In this document: positions 4,194 through 53,544 of the stretch, one piece after another
Layout of the letters: each line of letters opens with the position of its first letter
How positions within the stretch are numbered: position 1 is the first letter of the stretch
Source: Streptacidiphilus sp. ASG 303
GTDB taxonomy: Bacteria > Actinomycetota > Actinomycetes > Streptomycetales > Streptomycetaceae
Assembly: GCF_020991365.1 (NCBI RefSeq)
Contig: NZ_JAJLRA010000001.1
Location: forward strand, 362,142-426,141
Reading direction: 5' to 3'
Length of the DNA: 64,000 nucleotides
Translations under genes and position numbers: made by a program
Notes under the pieces: model-generated
The model's database searches: none
Seen by the model: the letters and a program-made list of their open reading frames with translations, nothing else
Told to the model about the DNA's origin: nothing

Positions 4194-4886
4194 ATGCACG
4201 CACGACGTCTCACGCAGCTGTACACCGGACTGGTGCTGTACGGGGCCAGCTCCGGCCTGCTCGTGCGGACCGGCCTGGGGCTGGACCCCTGGGACGTCTT
4301 CCACCAGGGGGTCGCGCTCCGCACGGGCTGGACGATCGGCACGGTCTCCTGCGTGGTCGGAGCGGCCGTGCTGCTGCTCTGGATCCCGCTGCGGCAGCGG
4401 CCGGGCCTGGGCACGGTCAGCAACGTGGTCGTGGTGGGCACCTCCATGGACGCGACGCTGTGGGCGGTGCCCGCCCCCGGCCCGCTGCCCCTGCGGGTGC
4501 TGCTCCTGGCGGCGGCCGTCCTGCTCAACGGGGCCGCGACCGGCCTGTACATCGGGGCCGGGTACGGGCCGGGCCCGCGCGACGGGCTGATGACGGGGCT
4601 GCACCGGCGGACCGGGCGCTCGGTCCGGCTGGTGCGGACCGGCATCGAGGTGGCGGTGCTGGCGGCGGGCTGGCTGCTGGGCGGCACGGTGGGCGTGGGG
4701 ACGGTGGTGTACGCCCTGGCGATCGGGCCGGCGGCGCAGGTCTTCCTGCGGTGGTTCTCGCGGCCCGCGGCAGGGGCCGTGCGGACCGGCGGGGCGCCTG
4801 CGGCGGCGGACCCGGCCGCACCGGCGGCGGACCCGGCGGCCGTGGCCCCGGCGACGGCGGCCCCGGCGGCGGAGGGCGCGTACTGA
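4194..4886 (+). CDS. YczE/YitT-family integral membrane protein
   Basis: This is a 230-residue polytopic membrane protein started by ATG at 4194 after AGAGGGGCC. It begins MHARRLTQLYTGLVLYGASS and contains the conserved GLDPWDVFHQG loop and GPRDGLMTGL, both typical of the YczE/DUF161 family. About five hydrophobic segments are visible. The last 45 residues are an Ala/Pro-rich tail (APAAADPAAPAADPAAVAPA) that is probably dispensable. Family members have been tied to surfactin synthesis in Bacillus, but transport function is unproven. Divergent pairing with a MocR regulator is a recognised genomic association, so expression is presumably controlled by the protein encoded at 2542-4068. Confidence 0.85.
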   Translation: MHARRLTQLYTGLVLYGASSGLLVRTGLGLDPWDVFHQGVALRTGWTIGTVSCVVGAAVLLLWIPLRQRPGLGTVSNVVVVGTSMDATLWAVPAPGPLPLRVLLLAAAVLLNGAATGLYIGAGYGPGPRDGLMTGLHRRTGRSVRLVRTGIEVAVLAAGWLLGGTVGVGTVVYALAIGPAAQVFLRWFSRPAAGAVRTGGAPAAADPAAPAADPAAVAPATAAPAAEGAY

Positions 4887-5033
4887 GCGGGGGCCGCGGA
4901 CGGACCGGGGCACGGACCGGGGGCATGGGCGGGGCCGGGGCGGGCAGGCGCGAAGTGTACGCCGACGGCGGCTGTCGGGATCGGTCACTGCGTGCAAAAT
5001 CGTGAAAACCCAGGGTGACATCGCACGCCAGAT

Positions 5034-5062
5034 GTGACAAAAGGGGCGCGGATGGGTACAAC
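5034..5062 (+). promoter_or_regulatory. Candidate housekeeping promoter of rbpA
   Basis: GTGACA (5034-5039), a 17-base spacer and TACAAC (5057-5062) form a plausible HrdB-type promoter about 65 bases upstream of the sigma-R promoter. It would give rbpA a basal expression route independent of oxidative stress. Confidence 0.45.
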
Positions 5063-5098
5063 GGGGGCGGCACGACGGACGACGCGCGTCTGGGGACG

Positions 5099-5124
5099 GG
5101 AATCTTCGACAGCGGCCGAGCGTT
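5099..5124 (+). promoter_or_regulatory. Sigma-R (disulfide stress) promoter of rbpA
   Basis: GGAAT at 5099-5103, exactly 18 bases, then GTT at 5122-5124: a perfect match to the sigma-R consensus of Streptomyces (GGAAT-N18-GTT). In S. coelicolor rbpA is an established sigma-R target, so this element is expected here and supports the gene call. The transcript would start near 5131. Confidence 0.9.
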
Positions 5125-5138
5125 GACCGGAACGACGA

Positions 5139-5168
5139 AGACAGCGACCACCTAGACAGCGACCACCA
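5139..5168 (+). repeat. 15-bp tandem duplication in the rbpA leader
   Basis: AGACAGCGACCACCT (5139-5153) is followed at once by AGACAGCGACCACCA (5154-5168). The duplication sits in the 5' untranslated region, between the sigma-R promoter and the ribosome binding site GGGAGG at 5188-5193. Confidence 0.85.
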
Positions 5169-5202
5169 GTCCTGTGGGCCACAAGCCCGGGAGGCACGAT
5201 TC

Positions 5203-5577
5203 ATGAGTGAGCGAGCTCTCCGCGGCACGCGACTCGGGGCCACCAGCTACGAGACCGACCGCGGCATCGATCTGGCCCCGCGCCAGACCGTGGAGTACGC
5301 ATGTCAGAACGGACACCGCTTCGAGGTCCCGTTCTCCGTGGAGGCCGAGATCCCGCCCGTGTGGGAGTGCCGCTTCTGCGGTACGGAGGCCCTCCTTCTC
5401 GACGGGGACGAGCCGGAGGAGAAGAAGGTGAAGCCGGCGCGCACCCATTGGGACATGCTGATGGAGCGCCGCACCAGGGAGGAGCTGGAGGAGGTGCTGG
5501 CCGAGCGCCTGGCCGTGCTCCGCTCCGGCGGGATGAACCTGGCCGTCCACCCGCGGGACAACCGCAAGAGCGCCTGA
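5203..5577 (+). CDS. rbpA: RNA polymerase-binding protein RbpA
   Basis: This is a 124-residue actinobacterial RNA polymerase accessory protein that binds the principal sigma factor and stabilises the open complex. Recognised features: the N-terminal tail MSERALRGTRLGATSYETD, the central core with CQNGHRFEVPFSVEAEIP and the WECRFCGTEALLLDG Cys pair (a zinc-binding type core), and the sigma-interacting C-terminal helix with RTREELEEVLAERLAVLR and the closing NRKSA. Length equals the Streptomyces homologue. The ATG at 5203 follows GGGAGG with good spacing. Transcription probably starts from the sigma-R promoter at 5099-5124 plus a vegetative promoter further up. A 22-bp hairpin downstream ends the unit. 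Confidence 0.98.
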   Translation: MSERALRGTRLGATSYETDRGIDLAPRQTVEYACQNGHRFEVPFSVEAEIPPVWECRFCGTEALLLDGDEPEEKKVKPARTHWDMLMERRTREELEEVLAERLAVLRSGGMNLAVHPRDNRKSA

Positions 5578-5610
5578 GACGACCGTCTCCCCCGGTGAGC
5601 GGCGGGGAGG

Positions 5611-5658
5611 CGAAGGCCCTGGCGCCGGCAGAGCGATCTGCCGGCGCCAGGGCCTTCG
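5611..5658. terminator. 22-bp perfect hairpin, bidirectional terminator rbpA/fxsA
   Basis: CGAAGGCCCTGGCGCCGGCA plus GA (5611-5632) pairs perfectly with 5637-5658 around the tetraloop GCGA. It lies 33 bases after rbpA stops and faces the convergent fxsA, so it probably ends both transcripts. Confidence 0.9.
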
Positions 5659-5757
5659 TCGTGCCGGGACCCCCGCGGCCCGCCGTGGCGCGCCCCCGTC
5701 CGGGACGGACCGGGGGCGGACCGGGGGGACCCGGCCCGCCCCGCCTCCCGCACCCGC

Positions 5758-5778
5758 GCGTCAGGCGTCAGGCGTCAG
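5758..5778. repeat. 7-bp triplication across the fxsA stop codon
   Basis: GCGTCAG is repeated three times in tandem at 5758-5764, 5765-5771 and 5772-5778. Each copy contains TCA, the reverse complement of a TGA stop codon. The first in-frame stop of fxsA is the copy at 5775-5777. Confidence 0.85.
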
Positions 5779-6401
5779 CGCGGCGGCTGCTCCGGCGGCA
5801 GGATCCGGACGGTGCGCGGCGGACGGGCGTCGTCCCGGGACGCGCCGCCGGGGCCGCCGTCGCGGTCCACGACCTCGCCCGGGACGACCCTGCCCCCGGG
5901 CCGGTGGACCCGCAGCTGCTCCTGCAGCCGCAGCGCCTCGGCCAGCGGGTCGCCGGCCCGGCCGCGGCGGACCGCCGCACGGGCCAGACGGACCGGGACG
6001 CGGCGCAGCAGCGCCCTGGTCGGCGGGAAGAGGCAGGCGAGGCCGAGCAGGTCGGAGAGGAAGCCGGGCAGGATCAGCAGCACGCCGCCGGTGATCGTGA
6101 GGGCGGTGTGGGACTCCCCCGCCTCGGGCTCGCGGCCCTGCTCCACGGAGCGGGCCGCGGAGCGCAGGGCGCGCAGGCCGGCGCGTTTGACGGTCCAGCC
6201 CCCGACGAGGGCACCCGCCAGGAACAGCGCCGCCACCGCGAGGCCGCCGAGGACCGAGGCGACCTCCAGGGCCAGCCAGATCTCCAGGACCAGCCAGGCC
6301 GCGACGGCGAGCGGCAGCAGGGTGCGCAGCCGTCCGCCGCGCCCCGCCGGGGCGGCGGAGGCGCGGGCGGTCGGACGGGGGTCGGTCACGGCGGGTTCCA
6401 C
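5775..6401 (-). CDS. fxsA: FxsA-family membrane protein
   Basis: This is a 208-residue protein with the FxsA fold: hydrophobic helices at about residues 27-45 and 48-70 (LLPLAVAAWLVLEIWLALEV), and the conserved core with GGVLLILPGFLSDLLGLACL followed by FPPTRALLRR. In E. coli FxsA is an inner-membrane protein that blocks phage T7 exclusion by F plasmid; its role in actinomycetes is not defined. The C-terminal 60 residues are hydrophilic and Arg/Pro-rich. I take GTG at 6401, after GGAGCGAGGA; GTG at 6389 is an alternative. It is convergent with rbpA and next to ppm, as in S. coelicolor. Confidence 0.9.
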   Translation of the reverse strand: MEPAVTDPRPTARASAAPAGRGGRLRTLLPLAVAAWLVLEIWLALEVASVLGGLAVAALFLAGALVGGWTVKRAGLRALRSAARSVEQGREPEAGESHTALTITGGVLLILPGFLSDLLGLACLFPPTRALLRRVPVRLARAAVRRGRAGDPLAEALRLQEQLRVHRPGGRVVPGEVVDRDGGPGGASRDDARPPRTVRILPPEQPPR

Positions 6402-7569: not shown

Positions 7570-9399
7570 TCAGTCGCCGGCGGTCCCGACGGTCGGCGGG
7601 ACAGGCCCGGTACCGCGGCGGGACCTGGTCCGCAGGACGGCCGCCGCGCAGGAGGACAGCCCAACAATAGCGACCGCCCACTCGGGCCAGGCACCGAGAC
7701 GGTCGGCGGGTGTCGTTCCGTCGCGCAGGGGGACCGCCGCCGTCAGCCGGGCCGCGGTCAGCTCGGCCGTGCGCTGCCGGACCGTGCCGTCCGGCCCGAC
7801 CACCGCGCTGATCCCGCTGGTCGCGGCGATCAGCACGGCGCGGCCGTGCTCGACCGCGCGCAGCCGCGACATGGCCAGCTGCTGCTCGGGCTGGCCGCTG
7901 CGGGCGTAGGTGGCGTTGTTGGTCTGGACGACCAGCACCCGGCCGCCGGCGTCGACGGCGTCGCGGACGATCCCGTCGTAGGCGATCTCGAAGCAGATCA
8001 CGTCGCCGACGCGGACCTTCCCCACCTGGAGGACGCCCGTGGTGGTGCCGGGGTAGAAGTCGCGGGCCACCCGGTCGAGCCGGGTGACGACCTTGGACAG
8101 CAGGGAGCGGAACGGCACGTACTCGCCGAACGGCACCGGGTGCTGCTTGGTGTACGAGGCGCCGGGGCCGGTGGCCGGGTCCCAGACGATGCCCTCGTTG
8201 CGGACGTGCTGCCGGTCCGGGCCGTCGACGAGGGTGCCGACCAGCACGGGCACGCCGACCGCCTTCACCGCGCGGTCGACGGCGGCGTACGCCTCGGGGT
8301 TGCGGAAGGGGTCGAGGTCGGAGGAGTTCTCCGGCCAGATCACGGCGTCGGGGCGGGGGCTGCGGCCGGCGGCGACGTCCGCGGCGAGGCGCTCGGTGGC
8401 GCTCACGTGGTTGTTGAGCACCGCCATCGGGCGGCCCAGGAAGTCCATGCCGGGGTGGGGCACGTTGCCCTGGACGACGGCGACCTCCGCGGTGTCGTCC
8501 GGCGCGGTGGGGACGGGGACGGGGACGGCCTGGCCGGCGAGGGCCGCGGCGACGGCGGCGACGGCCGGTACGGCGGCGAGCCGCAGCGTCCGCCGGGGGG
8601 CGGGCGGGGCGTCGGGGGCCGCGGGGGCGTCGGGGAGGGGCGGGACCGGGAGGCGGCGGCGCAGCGCCGCCGGTGCGTGCCGCAGCAGGGGCAGGGCGGC
8701 CGCGGCCAGCAGGGCGCCGGTCAGCGCGACGGCGAAGGTGACCAGGGGCGCGCCCCCCAGCGCGGCGAGCGGCGTGTACGGGGTCGCCGTGTTGGCGAAC
8801 GCCAGCCTGCCCCAGGGGAAGCCGCCGAGCGGCAGGCGGTCGCGGGCCCACTCCTGGGCGACCCAGAGGCAGGCCGTCCACAGCGGCCACGCCCGCAGCC
8901 GGGAGGTGACGGCCAGGCCGGCGCCCATGGCGGCCAGGAAGAGCGCCTCGACCAGCGAGAGCGCGATCCAGGCGTCGGAGCCGATCACCCGCAGCCAGTC
9001 GAGCAGCCAGAGCAGGAAGGGCACGCCGAAGGCGAAGCCCGTCCAGGCGCCCTGCCGGGCCGTGCGGCCGCGGGTGAGCAGCGAGAGGCCGGCGACGGCG
9101 GCCACCGACAGCGGCCACAGGTCGTACGGCGGGAAGGCGGCGGCCAGCATCAGGCCGAAGAGCGCCGCGGCGGCGGTGCGGGGCAGTCCGCGCCGCAGCC
9201 GCTCGCGGCGTGGCGGGCGGCCGTCGGCCCGGGCCGGTGCGGGGGCGGCCGGCGTGCCGCCGGGCGGCTCGGGGGCGGCGGCACCGGTCTGCGGCGCGGC
9301 CGTCGGGTCGGCGGGGGCCGGGCGGCCGTCGGGCGGGCCGGGGACGGGGTCCGCCGCGTCGGTCTGCCCGCGGAGCACGGGGTCTACGGGCACTGCCAC
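7570..9399 (-). CDS. lnt: Apolipoprotein N-acyltransferase
   Basis: This is a 609-residue membrane enzyme that N-acylates the lipid-modified Cys of lipoproteins. It has an unusually long Pro/Ala-rich cytoplasmic N-terminus (about 75 residues), then about seven to eight hydrophobic segments starting ALFGLMLAAAFPPYDLWPLS, then a periplasmic nitrilase domain from TAEVAVVQGNVPHPGMDF. The catalytic triad is visible: Glu in IWPENSSDLD (about 354), Lys in YTKQHPVPFGEYVPF (about 416) and Cys in GDVICFEIAYDG (about 466). A final membrane segment (WAVAIVGLSSCAAAVL) closes the protein. Start chosen: GTG at 9399 preceded by GAGG eight bases upstream; GTG at 9393 is also possible. It is upstream of ppm on the same strand and likely linked to it. 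The leader may be long (see the promoter at 9980-10010). Confidence 0.93.
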   Translation of the reverse strand: MAVPVDPVLRGQTDAADPVPGPPDGRPAPADPTAAPQTGAAAPEPPGGTPAAPAPARADGRPPRRERLRRGLPRTAAAALFGLMLAAAFPPYDLWPLSVAAVAGLSLLTRGRTARQGAWTGFAFGVPFLLWLLDWLRVIGSDAWIALSLVEALFLAAMGAGLAVTSRLRAWPLWTACLWVAQEWARDRLPLGGFPWGRLAFANTATPYTPLAALGGAPLVTFAVALTGALLAAAALPLLRHAPAALRRRLPVPPLPDAPAAPDAPPAPRRTLRLAAVPAVAAVAAALAGQAVPVPVPTAPDDTAEVAVVQGNVPHPGMDFLGRPMAVLNNHVSATERLAADVAAGRSPRPDAVIWPENSSDLDPFRNPEAYAAVDRAVKAVGVPVLVGTLVDGPDRQHVRNEGIVWDPATGPGASYTKQHPVPFGEYVPFRSLLSKVVTRLDRVARDFYPGTTTGVLQVGKVRVGDVICFEIAYDGIVRDAVDAGGRVLVVQTNNATYARSGQPEQQLAMSRLRAVEHGRAVLIAATSGISAVVGPDGTVRQRTAELTAARLTAAVPLRDGTTPADRLGAWPEWAVAIVGLSSCAAAVLRTRSRRGTGPVPPTVGTAGD

Positions 9400-16462: not shown

Positions 16463-19400
16463 ATGGCGAAGGCCGATAAACATCTGATAAACAGCACCTG
16501 CGGTGCCGTGGGACGCAGCGCACCGCAGGGGGAGAGCCGCTCCGAGCCGGTCGGGGCGGGCATCGGGGAAGCCGGGGGGCGCGCAGCCTTGCAGACCGAC
16601 GCGGACGCCGCACAGCCGAATCTGCACTTCGAGGTCCTGGGCCCGCTGCAGGCGTGGCGCTCCTCCCGGGAGGTCGAGCTGGGACCGCCGCAGCAGCGCG
16701 CGCTGCTGGCCGTGCTGCTCCGGCGGGCGGGCCGGCCCACCGGGCTCCGGGAGGCGGTCGAGGGGGTCTGGGGCGAGGACCCGCCCCCGAACGCCGTGGC
16801 CGCCGTCCGCACGTACGTCTCCCGGCTGCGCCGCTCCCTGGAGCCCGACCGCAGGTCCAGGACGGCCGCGGACACCCTCGTCTCGGTCGCGGACGGCTAC
16901 GCCCTGCGCCTGCCGCCGGGGGCCGTCGACGCCGACCGGTTCGAGCAGGACGTCAGCCGGGCGGGCCGGGCGCTGGCCGCCGGGGACGCCGAGGGCTGCC
17001 ACGCGGCGGCGGCTGCGGCGCTCGCCCTGTGGCGGGCCGCCCCGCTCCCGGGCCTGCCGGGCCCCTCGGCCGACGCCTGGCGCAGGCGGCTGGAGGAGCT
17101 GCGCTGCACCGCGCTGGAGCTGCGCCTCGGCGCCGGGATCGACCTCGGCCGGGCCCAGGAGGCCGTCGCGGAGCTGGCGGACCTGGTCGTGGAGCACCCG
17201 CTGCGGGAGCGGTTCCGGGCCCTGCTGATGCTGGCGCTGTACCGCGGGGGGCGGCAGGCCGAGGCGCTCGCCGCCTACGCCGACGCCCGCCGCCTGCTGG
17301 TCGCCGAGCTCGGCGTGGAGCCGGGGCCCGAACTCGGCGAGCTGCACGCGCGCATCCTGGCCTCGGACGCCTCCCTGCTGCGGCCCGCGCCCCCGGTCGC
17401 GGTGTCCCGCGGCCCCGGGGAGCGGCCGGCCGCGGCGGTCCCCGCGCAGCTCCCCGCGGACCCGGCCGACTTCACCGGCCGGGAGGCGATGACCCGGGAG
17501 CTGGAGGCGGTGCTCCGCGGCGGGGACGGCGGTCAGGGCGGTCGGGGCGGTCGGGGCGGGGACGGCGGCGTCCGCCTCTGCGCGGTGTCGGGCATCGGCG
17601 GGGTCGGCAAGACGACGCTGGCCGTGCACGCCGGGCACCGGGTCCGCGCGGAGTTCCCCGACGGCCAGCTCCACGTGGACCTGCGCGGCGCCGGGGACGG
17701 CCCCGCCGACCCGGAGGCCGTGCTCGGCGACTTCCTCACCGCCCTGGGCCAGGATCCGGACGGCGTCCCGGAGGGCCTGGAGCAGCGGGCGCGGCTCTAC
17801 CGCTCCCTGCTGGCCGACCGCCGGGTCCTGGTCGTGCTGGACAACGCCCTGGACACCGCCCAGGTCCTGCCGCTGCTGCCCGGCGGCCCCGGGTGCGCCG
17901 TGGTGGTCACCAGCCGGGCCCGGCTCACCGACCTGACCGGGGCCCGCCACGTCGACCTGGACGTCCTGGACCCGCAGGAGGCCGTGCGGCTGTTCGCCGC
18001 CATCGCCGGGACCGAGCGGGTGGAGGCCGAGCGGGAGGCGGCCCTGGACGTCGTGTCCGCCTGCAGCTTCCTGCCGCTCGCGGTGCGGATCGTGGCGTCC
18101 CGGCTGGCGGCGCGCCGCTCCTGGACGGTGTCGGTGCTGGCCGAGCGCCTCGCCGACGAGCAGCGCCGCCTGGACGAGCTGCAGACCGGGCGGCTCGGCG
18201 TGGAGGCCACGTTCGAGCTGGGCTACCGGCAGCTCTCCCCCGCCCTGGCCCGGGCGTTCAGGCTGCTGGCGCTCCCGGACAGCCCGGACCTCTCGCTGGC
18301 CTCCGCCGCGGCCGTGCTGGGGCTGCAGGTGCAGGACGCGGAGGACCTGGCGGAGGCGCTGGTCGACGCCGGGATGCTGGAGTCCCCCGCCCCCGGCCGC
18401 TACCGCCACCACGACCTGCTGCGGCTCTTCGCGCGGCGGCGGAGCGGGCGGGCCGACACGGCCGGGGAGCGGGACCTGGCCTCCGGCCGGCTGCTGGACT
18501 TCCTCTTCGCCAGCGTCTCGGCGGCGTCCCGGCTGCTGGAGCCGGGCGACGTCCTGACGGACCACCTGCGGCCGCCGCAGGCGCAGGCGGCGCCCCTGCG
18601 GGACACCGAGGCCGCCCGCACCTGGCTCCGCTCCGAGCAGGCGACGCTCTTCGCGGTCGTCTCGCAGCGGGCCGGCGAGGACCGCGAGGGCGCCCTGCGG
18701 ACGCTGGTCGACCTGCTGATGGCCTGGGTGTGGCTGATCGACGGCGTGGTCCACCAGCGGCAGATCGAGCGGGTCCTGCGGCCGGTGGTGGCCACCGCCC
18801 ACCGCGCCGGCGACCGGGTCGCGGAGTCGCGCGCCCGCTGCGTCCGCGCGTTCCTGCTGTACTCCTGCGACCGGTACGAGGCGGCCGAGGAGGAGCTGCG
18901 AACCGCCCTGGAGCTCGCCCGCGCCTGCGGGGACGGCGTGGCGCACTTCAGCGCGGCGAACCTGCTGGGCGTCGTCACGGGCGGCACCGGCCGCTCGGTG
19001 GAGGCGCTGCCGTACCTGCACGAGGCCCTGGAGCAGTGCGAGCTGCTGGGGAACACCAGCGTCTCGGCACTGATCATGGGCAACACGGCCCGGTCGCTGA
19101 TGGACCTCGGCCGCGCGGCGGAGGCCCGGGCCATGGCGGAGGCGGCGCTGGCGGCCGCCGAGTCCTCCGGCAACGACTCCACGGTGGCCGAGACGCGGTA
19201 CGCCGCGAGCGTGGTGATGCGCCAGTCCGGCGAGCCGGAGCCCGCCGCCGTCCACCTGCACCACGCCCTGCGGCTCTTCCGCGAGCAGGGGCGCCGGAGC
19301 TGGGAGGGCCTGGTCCTGGCGCGGCTGGCGGAGTGCCTGCTCGCCCTGGACCGGGACGCGGACGCGGCGCTGACGGCGGAGCAGGCGCTGGCGGTGGCGG

Positions 19401-19612
19401 TGGAGATCGACGACGCGTATTGCGAGGGGCTGGCCCACGCGGCCCGCGGGCGCGCCCTGGTCCGGCTGGGGCACGCCGAGCGGGGCCGGGCGGCCCTGGA
19501 GGGCGCGGCCGCGGTGTTCGGCCGGCTGGGGGTGCCGGAGGCCGAGGAGGTCGGGGACCTCCTGCGGCAGGCGGGCGACCGGACGGCGGCGGCGGTGCAG
19601 GCCTCCCCCTGA
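16463..19612 (+). CDS. AfsR-type SARP regulator with NB-ARC and TPR domains
   Basis: This is a 1049-residue multidomain regulator. From about residue 50 it has the SARP winged helix (LHFEVLGPLQAWRSSREVEL, VWGEDPPPNAVAAVRTYVSR), then the bacterial transcriptional activation domain (to about 285, with GRQAEALAAYADARRLLVAE). An NB-ARC ATPase follows (about 335-620), with Walker A GIGGVGKTTLA (about 377), Walker B-like RRVLVVLDNA and the RNBS/GLPL-like CSFLPLAVRIVAS. The last 400 residues carry tetratricopeptide repeats. This is the AfsR plan (993 residues in S. coelicolor), so it is expected to activate secondary-metabolism or developmental genes in an ATP-dependent way. ATG at 16463 is preceded by GGAG at good spacing; GTG 16508 and TTG 16589 are alternatives because the first codons overlap a direct repeat. 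Confidence 0.88.
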   Translation: MAKADKHLINSTCGAVGRSAPQGESRSEPVGAGIGEAGGRAALQTDADAAQPNLHFEVLGPLQAWRSSREVELGPPQQRALLAVLLRRAGRPTGLREAVEGVWGEDPPPNAVAAVRTYVSRLRRSLEPDRRSRTAADTLVSVADGYALRLPPGAVDADRFEQDVSRAGRALAAGDAEGCHAAAAAALALWRAAPLPGLPGPSADAWRRRLEELRCTALELRLGAGIDLGRAQEAVAELADLVVEHPLRERFRALLMLALYRGGRQAEALAAYADARRLLVAELGVEPGPELGELHARILASDASLLRPAPPVAVSRGPGERPAAAVPAQLPADPADFTGREAMTRELEAVLRGGDGGQGGRGGRGGDGGVRLCAVSGIGGVGKTTLAVHAGHRVRAEFPDGQLHVDLRGAGDGPADPEAVLGDFLTALGQDPDGVPEGLEQRARLYRSLLADRRVLVVLDNALDTAQVLPLLPGGPGCAVVVTSRARLTDLTGARHVDLDVLDPQEAVRLFAAIAGTERVEAEREAALDVVSACSFLPLAVRIVASRLAARRSWTVSVLAERLADEQRRLDELQTGRLGVEATFELGYRQLSPALARAFRLLALPDSPDLSLASAAAVLGLQVQDAEDLAEALVDAGMLESPAPGRYRHHDLLRLFARRRSGRADTAGERDLASGRLLDFLFASVSAASRLLEPGDVLTDHLRPPQAQAAPLRDTEAARTWLRSEQATLFAVVSQRAGEDREGALRTLVDLLMAWVWLIDGVVHQRQIERVLRPVVATAHRAGDRVAESRARCVRAFLLYSCDRYEAAEEELRTALELARACGDGVAHFSAANLLGVVTGGTGRSVEALPYLHEALEQCELLGNTSVSALIMGNTARSLMDLGRAAEARAMAEAALAAAESSGNDSTVAETRYAASVVMRQSGEPEPAAVHLHHALRLFREQGRRSWEGLVLARLAECLLALDRDADAALTAEQALAVAVEIDDAYCEGLAHAARGRALVRLGHAERGRAALEGAAAVFGRLGVPEAEEVGDLLRQAGDRTAAAVQASP
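16475..16493. promoter_or_regulatory. SARP-like 11-bp-spaced direct repeat
   Basis: GATAAACA at 16475-16482 is repeated exactly at 16486-16493, an 11-bp period, in otherwise GC-rich DNA. SARP proteins bind direct heptamer repeats with 11-bp spacing. The element lies in the first codons of the SARP frame as annotated, or in its leader if translation starts downstream; it also lies upstream of the divergent 36-residue peptide gene. Confidence 0.4.
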
Positions 19613-19674: not shown

Positions 19675-19704
19675 TTGACCTGGGCCGGGGCCAGGTCCTA
19701 CCTT
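19675..19704 (+). promoter_or_regulatory. Strong promoter of the candidate small RNA
   Basis: TTGACC (19675-19680), an 18-base spacer and TACCTT (19699-19704) fit the Streptomyces housekeeping consensus. GACCTGG (19677-19683) and CCAGGTC (19691-19697) form a 7-bp inverted repeat that overlaps the -35 box and spacer, an ideal place for a repressor. It starts 63 bases after the SARP gene stops. Confidence 0.65.
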
Positions 19705-19710
19705 GTCCCC

Positions 19711-19790
19711 GTCGCGAGATTGGTTGATCCCGCAACAACAGACGCGAAGCCCCTCGGCCGTTCCCCCGTGGCCGAGGGGCTTCGTCCTGT
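19711..19790 (+). ncRNA. Candidate small RNA of about 80 nucleotides
   Basis: A complete promoter (19675-19704) would start transcription near 19711, and a 15-bp terminator stem ends it at 19784. The intervening 34 bases are atypically AT-rich for this genome (GAGATTGGTTGATCCCGCAA, then CAACAGACGCG). There is no start codon with a ribosome binding site, so the product is probably RNA. TCGCG near 19712 could pair with CGCGA near 19743-19747, in competition with the base of the terminator stem. The single-stranded ATTGGTTGATCC and CAACAACAGA stretches would be free for base pairing. The RNA lies between the SARP gene and the AAA+ ATPase gene. I cannot assign it to a named RNA family. Alternatively it is just the SARP terminator with a fortuitous promoter. 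Confidence 0.55.
19745..19784 (+). terminator. 15-bp intrinsic terminator of the small RNA and SARP unit
   Basis: CGAAGCCCCTCGGCC (19745-19759) pairs perfectly with GGCCGAGGGGCTTCG (19770-19784) around a 10-base loop. The gap 19785-20122 beyond it holds no gene that I can support. Confidence 0.85.
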
Positions 19791-20122
19791 CCCGGGCGGG
19801 ACCGGCACCGCCCCGGCCGGGGGATCCGCCGTGCCCGGGGCCGCGGCGGCGCGGCGCCCTTCCGGATCTGCGGGGCGCCGGTACGATGCCGGGAGGAGCG
19901 GCGCACGGGGTGGTGCGGGCCGGGGGCGGCGAAGGGCTCTCCGCCACTCCCCCGGGCCCCGCGGAGTCTGCGGGGACGGCCGCGTTCCGCGTCGGCCCCC
20001 GCAGGGTCATCATGGTGGCCGGACGGCCTGGCCCGCGGTGCGGCGGGCGGCACGAGGGGGCGGTGCTCATGGGTGCGGGAGCGGCGGCAGGCACGCGGCG
20101 GGACCCACGGCGGGGGGCCTGA

Positions 20123-22120
20123 GTGGGCGGGGCCGAGGACCCGGGCGGCGCCGGGACGGCGGGGCTCGCCGACCGGGCGTGGCTGCGGGCCATGGACGCG
20201 TACACGGCGGGGGCCTACTCCCGGGCCGAGGAGGAGTTCCGCACGGCGGTGCAGCTGGACCCCGGCATGGCGGACGCCTGGCTGGGGCTGCACGCCCTGC
20301 GGTCCGACACCTCCGGGGCGCTGCTGGCCATGCACCGCCACCGCGACCGGTTCGGCGAGCAGCGGGGCCGCCACCGCAGGCCGCTGAGCTCCTGGTACTG
20401 GCTCGGCTGGTGGGTGCAGCCGGTGCTGGAGGACCGGCGCGACCTGGCGCTGGCGCACGCCTCGCACTGGCTCGACGGCCGCCACCTGCCCGAGCTGGAC
20501 CGGGCCCTGGACCTCTGCCCGCCCGCCGGGGAGGACCCCTCGGTGCGGTTCCTGCACGCCTGCCGCTCCTACCTGGTCAAGGACTGGGAGCAGCTGATCC
20601 GCGACACCGACGGCCTGCTGGACGACCCCCTGCTGGGCATCGAGGCCGGCCTCTTCAGCGGGATGGCCCGGGTCCGGCTCGACATGTGCCCGCAGGCGGA
20701 GGCCCCGCTGGCGGCCTCGCTCGCGCGCTGCCGCTCCGAGCAGCCGCAGCGCAAGGAGCTGCGCTACTGGCTGGCGCGGGCGTACGAGGGCGCGGGCCGC
20801 AGCGCCGCGGCGCTGCCGCTGTACCGGGCGGTGCACCGGGCCGACCCGGCGTTCATGGACACCGCCGCCCGGCTCGCGGCGATCATGTCGGAGGACGGGG
20901 TCGACCCGGAGCTGCTGGAGGCCGAGCTGGACGGCGCGGCCGGGGCCGCGGGCACCGGGGCGGCGCAGTCCGCCGCCGGGGGCGAGGACGGCGGCTTCGG
21001 CGCGGCCGGGACCGCGGGCGGCGGCGGGACGGCGGGGGGCACCGGGCCCGCGGCCGAGGCCGCGGACCCGGTGGCGGCGACCGCGGCCGACCGGGCCGAG
21101 TCCGCCGGGGGCACCGCGGGGGCGGGCGGTCCCGGCGGCACGGCGAGCCCCGACGCGGGAGGCGCGGACGGCGGGGGCTCCGACGCCTCCCTGCGCGACC
21201 GGGTGGTGCTGCCGGTCCAGCCGCGGCCGGCGTCCGGCGCGGCCGCCGGGGCGGGCGGACCGGACCGCGGGCAGCTGGACGCGGCCCTGGCCGAGCTGGA
21301 CCGGATGGTCGGCATGGGACCGGTGAAGCGGCAGGTGCTGGCGCTGTCGGCGCAGCTGCGGATGGCGCGGCTGCGGGCCGGCCAGGGCCTGCCCGTGCAG
21401 CCGCCCAAGCGGCACTTCGTCTTCTCCGGGCCGTCCGGGACGGGCAAGACCACGGTGGCGCGGATCCTGGGCCGGGTGTTCTACGCCCTGGGGCTGCTCT
21501 CCGGCGACCACCTGGTGGAGGCGCAGCGCGCCGACCTGGTGGGCGAGTTCCTGGGGCAGACGGCGGTGAAGGCCAACGAGCTGATCGACTCGGCGCTGGA
21601 CGGCGTGCTCTTCATCGACGAGGCGTACTCGCTGGCCAACTCCGGCTACAGCAAGGGCGACGCGTACGGCGACGAGGCGCTGCAGGTGCTGCTGAAGCGC
21701 GCGGAGGACAACCGGGACCGGCTGGTCGTGATACTCGCCGGCTACCCGGAGGGCATGAACCGGCTGCTGGCCGCCAACCCCGGGCTCGCCTCGCGCTTCA
21801 CCACCCGGGTCGACTTCCCCAGCTACCGCCCGTCCGAGCTCACCGCGATCGGGCAGGCGCTGGCCGCCCGCGACGGCGACGGCTGGGACGCGGACGCCCT
21901 GGAGGAGCTGCACAGCATCTGCGCCCACGTGGTGGGCGAGGGCTGGATCGACGAACTGGGGAACGGCCGCTTCATGCGCACCCTGTACGAGAAGTCGTGC
22001 GCCTACCGGGACCTGCGCCTGTCGGTGCTGGCCGCGGCGCCCGGCCGGGAGGACCTGGCAACGCTCCGGCTGCCGGACCTGATGCAGGCGTACGGCGAGC
22101 TGATCGACGGGCGCGGCTGA
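20123..22120 (+). CDS. EccA/CbbX-like AAA+ ATPase with N-terminal TPR region
   Basis: This is a 665-residue protein. The N-terminal 270 residues are helical and TPR-like (YTAGAYSRAEEEFRTAVQLD, AWLGLHALRSDTSG, WYWLGWWVQP), matching the EccA N-domain of type VII secretion. A low-complexity Gly/Ala linker of about 85 residues follows. The C-terminal AAA+ domain of the CbbX/SpoVK type has Walker A GPSGTGKTTVARI (about 436-444), Walker B GVLFIDEAYSL (about 495-505) and the arginine-finger region NPGLASRFTTRVDFPSY. All ATPase residues look intact. Typical EccA is about 570-620 residues; the long linker explains the excess. Start: GTG at 20123 after GGGGGG. No esx, eccB-E or mycP genes are in the window, so it is either an orphan EccA-like ATPase or has another client. 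Confidence 0.8.
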   Translation: MGGAEDPGGAGTAGLADRAWLRAMDAYTAGAYSRAEEEFRTAVQLDPGMADAWLGLHALRSDTSGALLAMHRHRDRFGEQRGRHRRPLSSWYWLGWWVQPVLEDRRDLALAHASHWLDGRHLPELDRALDLCPPAGEDPSVRFLHACRSYLVKDWEQLIRDTDGLLDDPLLGIEAGLFSGMARVRLDMCPQAEAPLAASLARCRSEQPQRKELRYWLARAYEGAGRSAAALPLYRAVHRADPAFMDTAARLAAIMSEDGVDPELLEAELDGAAGAAGTGAAQSAAGGEDGGFGAAGTAGGGGTAGGTGPAAEAADPVAATAADRAESAGGTAGAGGPGGTASPDAGGADGGGSDASLRDRVVLPVQPRPASGAAAGAGGPDRGQLDAALAELDRMVGMGPVKRQVLALSAQLRMARLRAGQGLPVQPPKRHFVFSGPSGTGKTTVARILGRVFYALGLLSGDHLVEAQRADLVGEFLGQTAVKANELIDSALDGVLFIDEAYSLANSGYSKGDAYGDEALQVLLKRAEDNRDRLVVILAGYPEGMNRLLAANPGLASRFTTRVDFPSYRPSELTAIGQALAARDGDGWDADALEELHSICAHVVGEGWIDELGNGRFMRTLYEKSCAYRDLRLSVLAAAPGREDLATLRLPDLMQAYGELIDGRG

Positions 22121-26562: not shown

Positions 26563-26835
26563 TCACAGATGAGCGTATACGTCCTCGAGGGACAGGCCGC
26601 GGGCGACCATCATCACCTGGAGGTGGTAGAGCAGCTGGGAGATCTCCTCGGCCGTCCGCTCGTCCGACTCGTGCTCGGCGGCCATCCAGACCTCGGCGGC
26701 CTCCTCCACCACCTTCTTGCCGATGGCGTGCACGCCCTGCTGGACGAGCTGCGCGGTGCGGGAGGAACCGGGGTCGCCGGAGGCGGCCTTCTGCTGGAGC
26801 TCGGTGAAGAGCTCCTCGAATGTCTTCAGCGCCAT
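26563..26835 (-). CDS. hisE: Phosphoribosyl-ATP pyrophosphohydrolase (HisE)
   Basis: This 90-residue enzyme hydrolyses phosphoribosyl-ATP to phosphoribosyl-AMP, step two of histidine synthesis. It is all-helical, with the MazG-like metal motif [18 protein letters not shown] and [20 protein letters not shown]; length matches actinobacterial HisE. The ATG at 26835 is preceded by TAGGGT (26850-26845) nine bases upstream and has no ribosome binding site, so it is probably leaderless. In this lineage HisE is a separate protein, not fused to HisI, and it precedes hisG. Confidence 0.97.
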
Positions 26836-31561: not shown

Positions 31562-31661
31562 GGCGTGGGGAGAGGACGCGGACGAGGAGAAGCCGGGCAC
31601 GGCCGTGGGCGGACGCCCCGCAGGGGGCGCGCCGACGGCGCGGGTACGGCCGGACGTCCGC

Positions 31662-31789
31662 CGCGCACTGCCTCCCATCCGGACTTTCACCGTCGGTCCA
31701 GGAATTTCACCTGGTCAACCGGCCGCTGGCTGCGGACGGGTCGCGGACTGTAACCGCCGGTTCGGAATTACACCGACCCCGGAGTGCGC
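31662..31789 (-). promoter_or_regulatory. FMN riboswitch (RFN element) controlling the rib operon
   Basis: A complete RFN aptamer reads leftward. The closing P1 strands are GCGCACTCC (31789) and GGAGGCAGTGCGCG (31662). Conserved junction segments are all present: GGTGTAATTCCGAACCGGCG, GGTTACAGTCCGCGACCC, a variable arm, TGACCAGGTGAAATTCCTGG, then ACCGACGGTGAAAGTCCGGA and TGGGAGGCAG. The first base of P1 is near 31789, and ribD starts 135 bases downstream of the aptamer. FMN binding should reduce expression of ribD-ribE-ribM-ribBA-ribH. A second small hairpin (CGCGCC-GAC-GGCGCG, about 31628-31642) lies between aptamer and gene. Confidence 0.97.
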
Positions 31790-31917
31790 AAACGTCACTG
31801 GTACTGGATCAGAGTGTGCCATGCCCGGCCGCCCCGCGGGGAGGCGGGGGCACTGTGGAATCGCTCACGTTCCCGACCGGGGCCGGCGCGCGGCGCGTAC
31901 GGACACCCGCAGGCGTC

Positions 31918-53311: not shown

Positions 53312-53345
53312 AGCGCTCCCTGGGGTTGCAGCGGCTGCTGACTGA

Positions 53346-53396
53346 ACGCCCCCGGCGGGCCGGGGGCGTCCGGAAAGACTTCTGAGGGCGAGTCTA
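53346..53396 (-). promoter_or_regulatory. metK -10 box and leader hairpin
   Basis: TAGACT (53396-53391, minus strand) is a candidate -10 box. The leader then folds ACGCCCCCGG/CCGGGGGCGT (53369-53346) around CCCG, 34 bases before the GTG start. I see no SAM riboswitch; the hairpin may instead be the coaBC terminator. Confidence 0.4.
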
Positions 53397-53544
53397 ACCG
53401 TGATGACCTGGGAAAGGACATGCGGTCTCGGGTGGTGGATGGCACATCCGGACCGAACGGTCACCTGACGTGTACGTTTGGGCCATCCGTACACCCGTTC
53501 GGCCGCCGCCCGTGCGGGCGCCCTCCCCCGGGGGCCGGGCCGGG

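Follow-up and report, generated by a model that had tools for sequence, protein, structure and literature searches.

A small RNA gene conserved across Streptomycetaceae, very probably the ortholog of scr1434, combines a covarying stem with a nearly invariant C-rich loop

Several actinobacterial small RNAs (sRNAs) carry C-rich loops or are conserved across a genus, and they provide the closest comparisons for the gene described here. The 6C RNA of Actinobacteria is small and intergenic and has two C-rich-loop hairpins, and scr5239, a 159-nt Streptomyces sRNA conserved in the genus, acts on dagA and metE by pairing with their mRNAs. Moody et al. (2013; PMC3765725), who name sRNAs after the right-flanking gene, present scr1434/sar6912/svr1031 (S. 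coelicolor, S. avermitilis, S. venezuelae) as a highly expressed, northern-verified intergenic sRNA that forms a very stable stem-loop with a C-rich loop and reaches its highest level during aerial hyphae formation and sporulation; they also mention scr5583/sar2652/svr5279, a Streptomyces sRNA that is abundant too and whose terminal loop is C-rich. Our literature search found no published function for the scr1434 ortholog and no further paper naming scr1434.

We analysed a 64,000-nt stretch of the Streptacidiphilus sp. ASG 303 genome (contig NZ_JAJLRA010000001.1; hereafter the window), in which a first-pass annotation had proposed an sRNA gene equipped with a promoter and a terminator of its own. 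The predicted RNA is about 75-80 nt long (19711..19790, + strand), with its start placed by the distance from the promoter and its end by the hairpin. It lies between a SARP-type regulator gene (Trans_reg_C-BTAD-NB-ARC-TPR; 16577..19612, +; start codon provisional) and an EccA1-like AAA+ ATPase gene (20123..22120, +). In a Streptomyces locus, the genes running from riboflavin synthase up to the ATPase are, in order, RibE, PnuC, RibAB, RibH, (HisE), HisG, bPH, CNNM, CNNM, EccA, where HisE was entered from the window (26563-26835) and the remainder was read from that locus. SCO1443 is the riboflavin synthase that follows the FMN riboswitch (PMC4681348), and counting genes from it identifies the EccA-like gene as SCO1434. 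The window sRNA thus sits directly upstream of the SCO1434 ortholog, where scr1434 is expected, and like scr1434 it is an independent intergenic sRNA with a single very stable stem-loop and a C-rich loop, conserved among Streptomyces. By synteny and by the published text description, rather than by comparison of the sequences themselves, it is very probably the ortholog of scr1434. The gene is genuine and its ortholog has already been published; what is new in this genome is the annotation.

The other comparisons are more distant. The window sRNA resembles 6C RNA in being small and intergenic with a C-rich loop, but has one such hairpin instead of two, and the Rfam 6C model found no match in the window at its gathering score and none in the sRNA interval at E<=10. 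Its likeness to scr5583/sar2652/svr5279 is one of description, that RNA having a separate locus and gene number, and scr5239 differs in its length, its locus and its known targets. In this interval no Rfam 15 family scored above its gathering threshold, and membership was rejected as the best sRNA matches were at chance level (P37, 22 of the 50 bits required; Scr3202, 16.3 of 52). Elsewhere in the window, Rfam models detected an FMN riboswitch (RF00050, 98 bits; 31661-31791, minus strand) ahead of the riboflavin genes and a Streptomyces-metK RNA (RF03063, 53 bits; 53316-53431, minus strand).

The gene is found throughout the family. A 141-bp blastn query gave matches in 326/395 Streptomycetaceae genomes, and the search among relatives that the first-pass annotation had suggested, run with a covariance model (R1) built from 29 sequences at a cut-off of E<=0.01, matched 381/395, most of them strongly, and none of the 15 genomes from the order's other two families. 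In the order-level list, strong matches scored 65-91 bits and the next class among the matches listed reached 41 bits or less, so that in this list the orthologs stand clear of the noise; a multi-copy element was rejected, since each genome listed had one strong match, any weaker ones being at or below 41 bits. All 17 genera were matched, weakly in g2, g5, g11 and g15. The g15 locus, when read, had the promoter, the 5' hairpin and the EccA-like gene in place, together with a different stem bearing the same loop; one g5 site inspected by its loop sequence was no ortholog, and the sRNA is apparently missing from a few family genomes. Across 20 loci, the EccA1-like gene lay directly downstream on the same strand in 19, with two convergent CNNM genes usually coming next, and in the exception, genome G002, the contig enters an inserted element. 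The SARP gene adjoins the sRNA only in the three genomes of the window's genus, for which reason the suggested action on the flanking SARP is unlikely to be its general role. The stable neighbour encodes an ATPase whose N-terminal domain is of the EccA1 type (type VII secretion); its surroundings in the window comprise CNNM, HisG/HisE and riboflavin genes and no recognised secretion cluster.

The proposed promoter held up in full, its coordinates being correct: the -35 hexamer TTGACC (19675..19680), a spacer of exactly 18 nt (19681..19698) and the -10 hexamer TACCTT (19699..19704), all on the + strand. CTTGAC is present in 195/197 orthologs, the family consensus of the -10 hexamer is TACGTT, and the promoter consensus in orthologs across Streptomycetaceae is CTTGACCnggGGgccgtaCAGGncTTACGTT. 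The 18-nt spacer was kept in 29/29 orthologs of the first set and in 197/197 recovered by a script that admitted spacers of 16-19 nt, and this conservation is the strongest test against chance. G19711 sits at the usual distance from the -10 hexamer, which agrees with the start near 19711 predicted from promoter distance. A 7-bp inverted repeat noted over the promoter, GACCTGG/CCAGGTC, is indeed present, but its suggested role as an operator is weak because the repeat was not seen in the relatives inspected by eye. A generic pattern scanner called neither promoter nor terminator in the sRNA interval, which is no surprise for a promoter of the Streptomyces type and a hairpin that lacks a U-tract; composition alone is therefore insufficient to decide the case.

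The 80-nt RNA was predicted to fold at -47.4 kcal/mol, compared with -26.7 kcal/mol for dinucleotide shuffles (z = -7.0; 0/200 shuffles as good). This RNA includes a terminator-like stem-loop at 19744..19785 (+), with arms at 19744-19760 and 19769-19785; the 15 perfect pairs described at first are all there and two closing G-U pairs extend the stem to 17 bp, but a U-tract is absent. The stem is conserved with compensatory changes across Streptomycetaceae, a conclusion that is well supported: 99.1% of cells in the alignment of 29 sequences were paired, 9/16 pairs showed two-sided changes, and the covariation score was higher than in any of the 500 shuffles or any slid control. Upstream of it, ATTGGTTGATCC, which the first-pass annotation had taken to be single-stranded and suited to base-pairing, instead makes up most of a 5' hairpin (19711..19736, +) with A.C and other mismatches. 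Different genera form this hairpin from differing sequences, and in the window copy the hairpin is GCGAGAU...GAUCCCGC, unlike the GUGCGG type of most Streptomyces copies. Conservation of the 5' helix is suggestive rather than proven, given that its stability is only modestly above that of shuffles (mean z -1.6; p<0.05 in 29% of sequences). The stretch 19711-19745, described as AT-rich, has about 53% G+C by eye and is AT-rich only against this genome. A leaderless small protein was considered and rejected, as the ATG near the start in many Streptomyces copies occurs in none from the window's genus or genus g14. Collectively, the spacing, the 5' hairpin and the terminator stem are conserved and a syntenic northern-verified sRNA has been published, which bears out the proposed small RNA gene, promoter and terminator included.

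The loop contrasts with the varying stem. In the predicted fold, UUCCCCCG (19761-19768, +) is unpaired, and the surrounding region GTTCCCCCGTG (19760..19770, +), a candidate seed, was exact in 119/120 loci, the remaining locus having one C fewer. These loci had been picked by the promoter and 5' pattern CTTGACC-N18-TACGTTCTCAATGTGCGG only and not by the loop; the first alignment was chosen to contain GTTCCCCCGTG, and loop invariance there is uninformative. In genus g15, the same loop is carried on an unrelated stem. The invariance of the loop, together with an insertion in G002, points to GUUCCCCCGUG as the active part while the stem varies, so that the C-rich terminator loop, rather than ATTGGTTGATCC as first suggested, is the conserved and probably active segment. 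The covarying stem with its nearly invariant loop, and the family-wide evidence for that loop as the functional part, are new here.

In G002, a genome of the same genus, the sRNA gene is split over two contigs, L058 (G002:C420) and L330 (G002:C183). On L058, the host 5' half, ending in CGAAGCCCCTCGGTTGTTCCC, continues into TAGGAACACC..., and the next gene encodes a large serine recombinase (4495-6114; Resolvase-Recombinase-Zn ribbon); on L330, the host 3' half CCCCGTGACCGAGGGGCTTCG is preceded by TTACAGATGTCGTTA and followed by the ATPase promoter element. The segments assigned to the integrative element are L058 4495-6229 and L330 about 8730-8790. Joining the host halves yields the ordinary sRNA hairpin, and joining the foreign halves around CCC yields an imperfect palindrome, as would be expected for attP. 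The element end holds CCGGAAG-TTGTTCCCCCGTGA-CTTCCGG as well as a CCGAGGGGCTTCG copy pairing with the host 5' arm, and as a result the chimeric G002 RNA is predicted to fold with its loop still displayed (z = -8.2). From these two contigs of one draft genome, we infer that a serine-integrase element inserted into the sRNA loop and that its end rebuilds a hairpin with the same loop; selection for retaining the loop is the simplest reading of this single event. To our knowledge, large serine integrases do not usually integrate in this way. Among phage integrases, the nearest are serine integrases of Streptomyces phages (40-49% identity), and relatives of the integrase were found in 15 further genomes (39-52% identity). 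The relative that could be placed, in G192, lies far from that genome's sRNA, so it was rejected as another element at the same site. Phage carriers of the hairpin were likewise rejected: 61 viral contigs contained the 14-mer loop, and the stem was present in none of those checked.

How the loop might act can be sketched as follows. An RNA of about 75-80 nt, transcribed from its own promoter, would carry a 5' hairpin and, at its 3' end, a very stable stem-loop at which transcription also stops. It would act in trans, presenting the C-rich loop GUUCCCCCGUG to G-rich stretches of mRNA, for example ribosome-binding regions, in the phases of aerial growth and sporulation. A variable stem, a nearly invariant C-rich loop, abundance and an own promoter all fit trans pairing through the loop, and we lean modestly towards base pairing as the mechanism. 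Gram-positive sRNAs that have C-rich loops usually use them to pair with G-rich mRNA, and this general background also speaks against a competing account, in which the RNA binds a protein through UUCCCCCG as a sponge or decoy instead of pairing with mRNA. Such a role has no candidate protein, but a protein site, too, typically shows as a loop that stays constant while its stem varies, and the outcome of the search for mRNA targets counts in its favour. Among perfect 10-mers near start codons, the loop complement CACGGGGGAA was sought 2-11 nt before the start codon in 41 genomes (60 sites fetched, spread over many genera), and no gene recurred across genera; among these perfect complements no conserved ribosome-binding-site target was found, the one recurrent gene being confined to genus g3. 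In two genomes of that genus (L308 and L314), CACGGGGGAACG stands just before the start codon of one protein family, whose start looks chorismate mutase-like by eye. A lack of cross-genus targets means that pairing may be short, imperfect or away from the start codon, or that the loop may bind protein, and we regard protein binding as possible but rather unlikely. In a genome of >70% G+C, a C-rich loop is also less specific, a point made by Moody et al. as well (PMC3765725).

Base pairing by a trans-acting RNA must further be weighed against a cis-acting role, in which the element would be a leader or attenuator of the EccA-like gene and transcription would either stop at the hairpin or read through. 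In the loci examined the element is always upstream of this gene and on its strand, with about 250-470 nt between hairpin and gene, an arrangement that suits attenuation. However, the ATPase gene appears to have a promoter of its own downstream of the hairpin: a -10-like GGTAC.ATG element lies about 120 nt past the hairpin in 177/191 orthologs, and in the window TACGAT (19882..19887, +), within the conserved GGTACGATGC (19880-19889), is its probable -10 hexamer, which makes attenuation less likely. Nor was an alternative anti-terminator pairing seen in the folds made; the 5' part is kept as a hairpin and not as sequence, attenuation would not call for a loop that never changes, and the orthologs are reported as intergenic sRNAs (PMC3765725). 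Attenuation is accordingly improbable. That the region is merely a conserved bidirectional terminator and promoter lacking any RNA function is very improbable, for although the hairpin would also halt transcription from the upstream gene, terminators do not require a fixed loop, the promoter is conserved with fixed spacing, and the orthologs are reported to be abundant RNAs (PMC3765725).

The trans-acting sRNA remains our preferred reading. Genome annotation misses the gene, as no Rfam family covers it, and few Streptomyces sRNAs have an assigned function; this one is near-universal in the family, single-copy, and abundant during sporulation in three species. Its nearly invariant 11-nt loop makes a precise mutational test feasible. 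As a tentative proposal, this family-wide sRNA may have its single C-rich loop as its working part, important enough for a serine-integrase element that uses the loop as its attachment site to bring along a substitute hairpin in which the loop is unchanged. Through pairing or protein binding the loop may regulate development genes.
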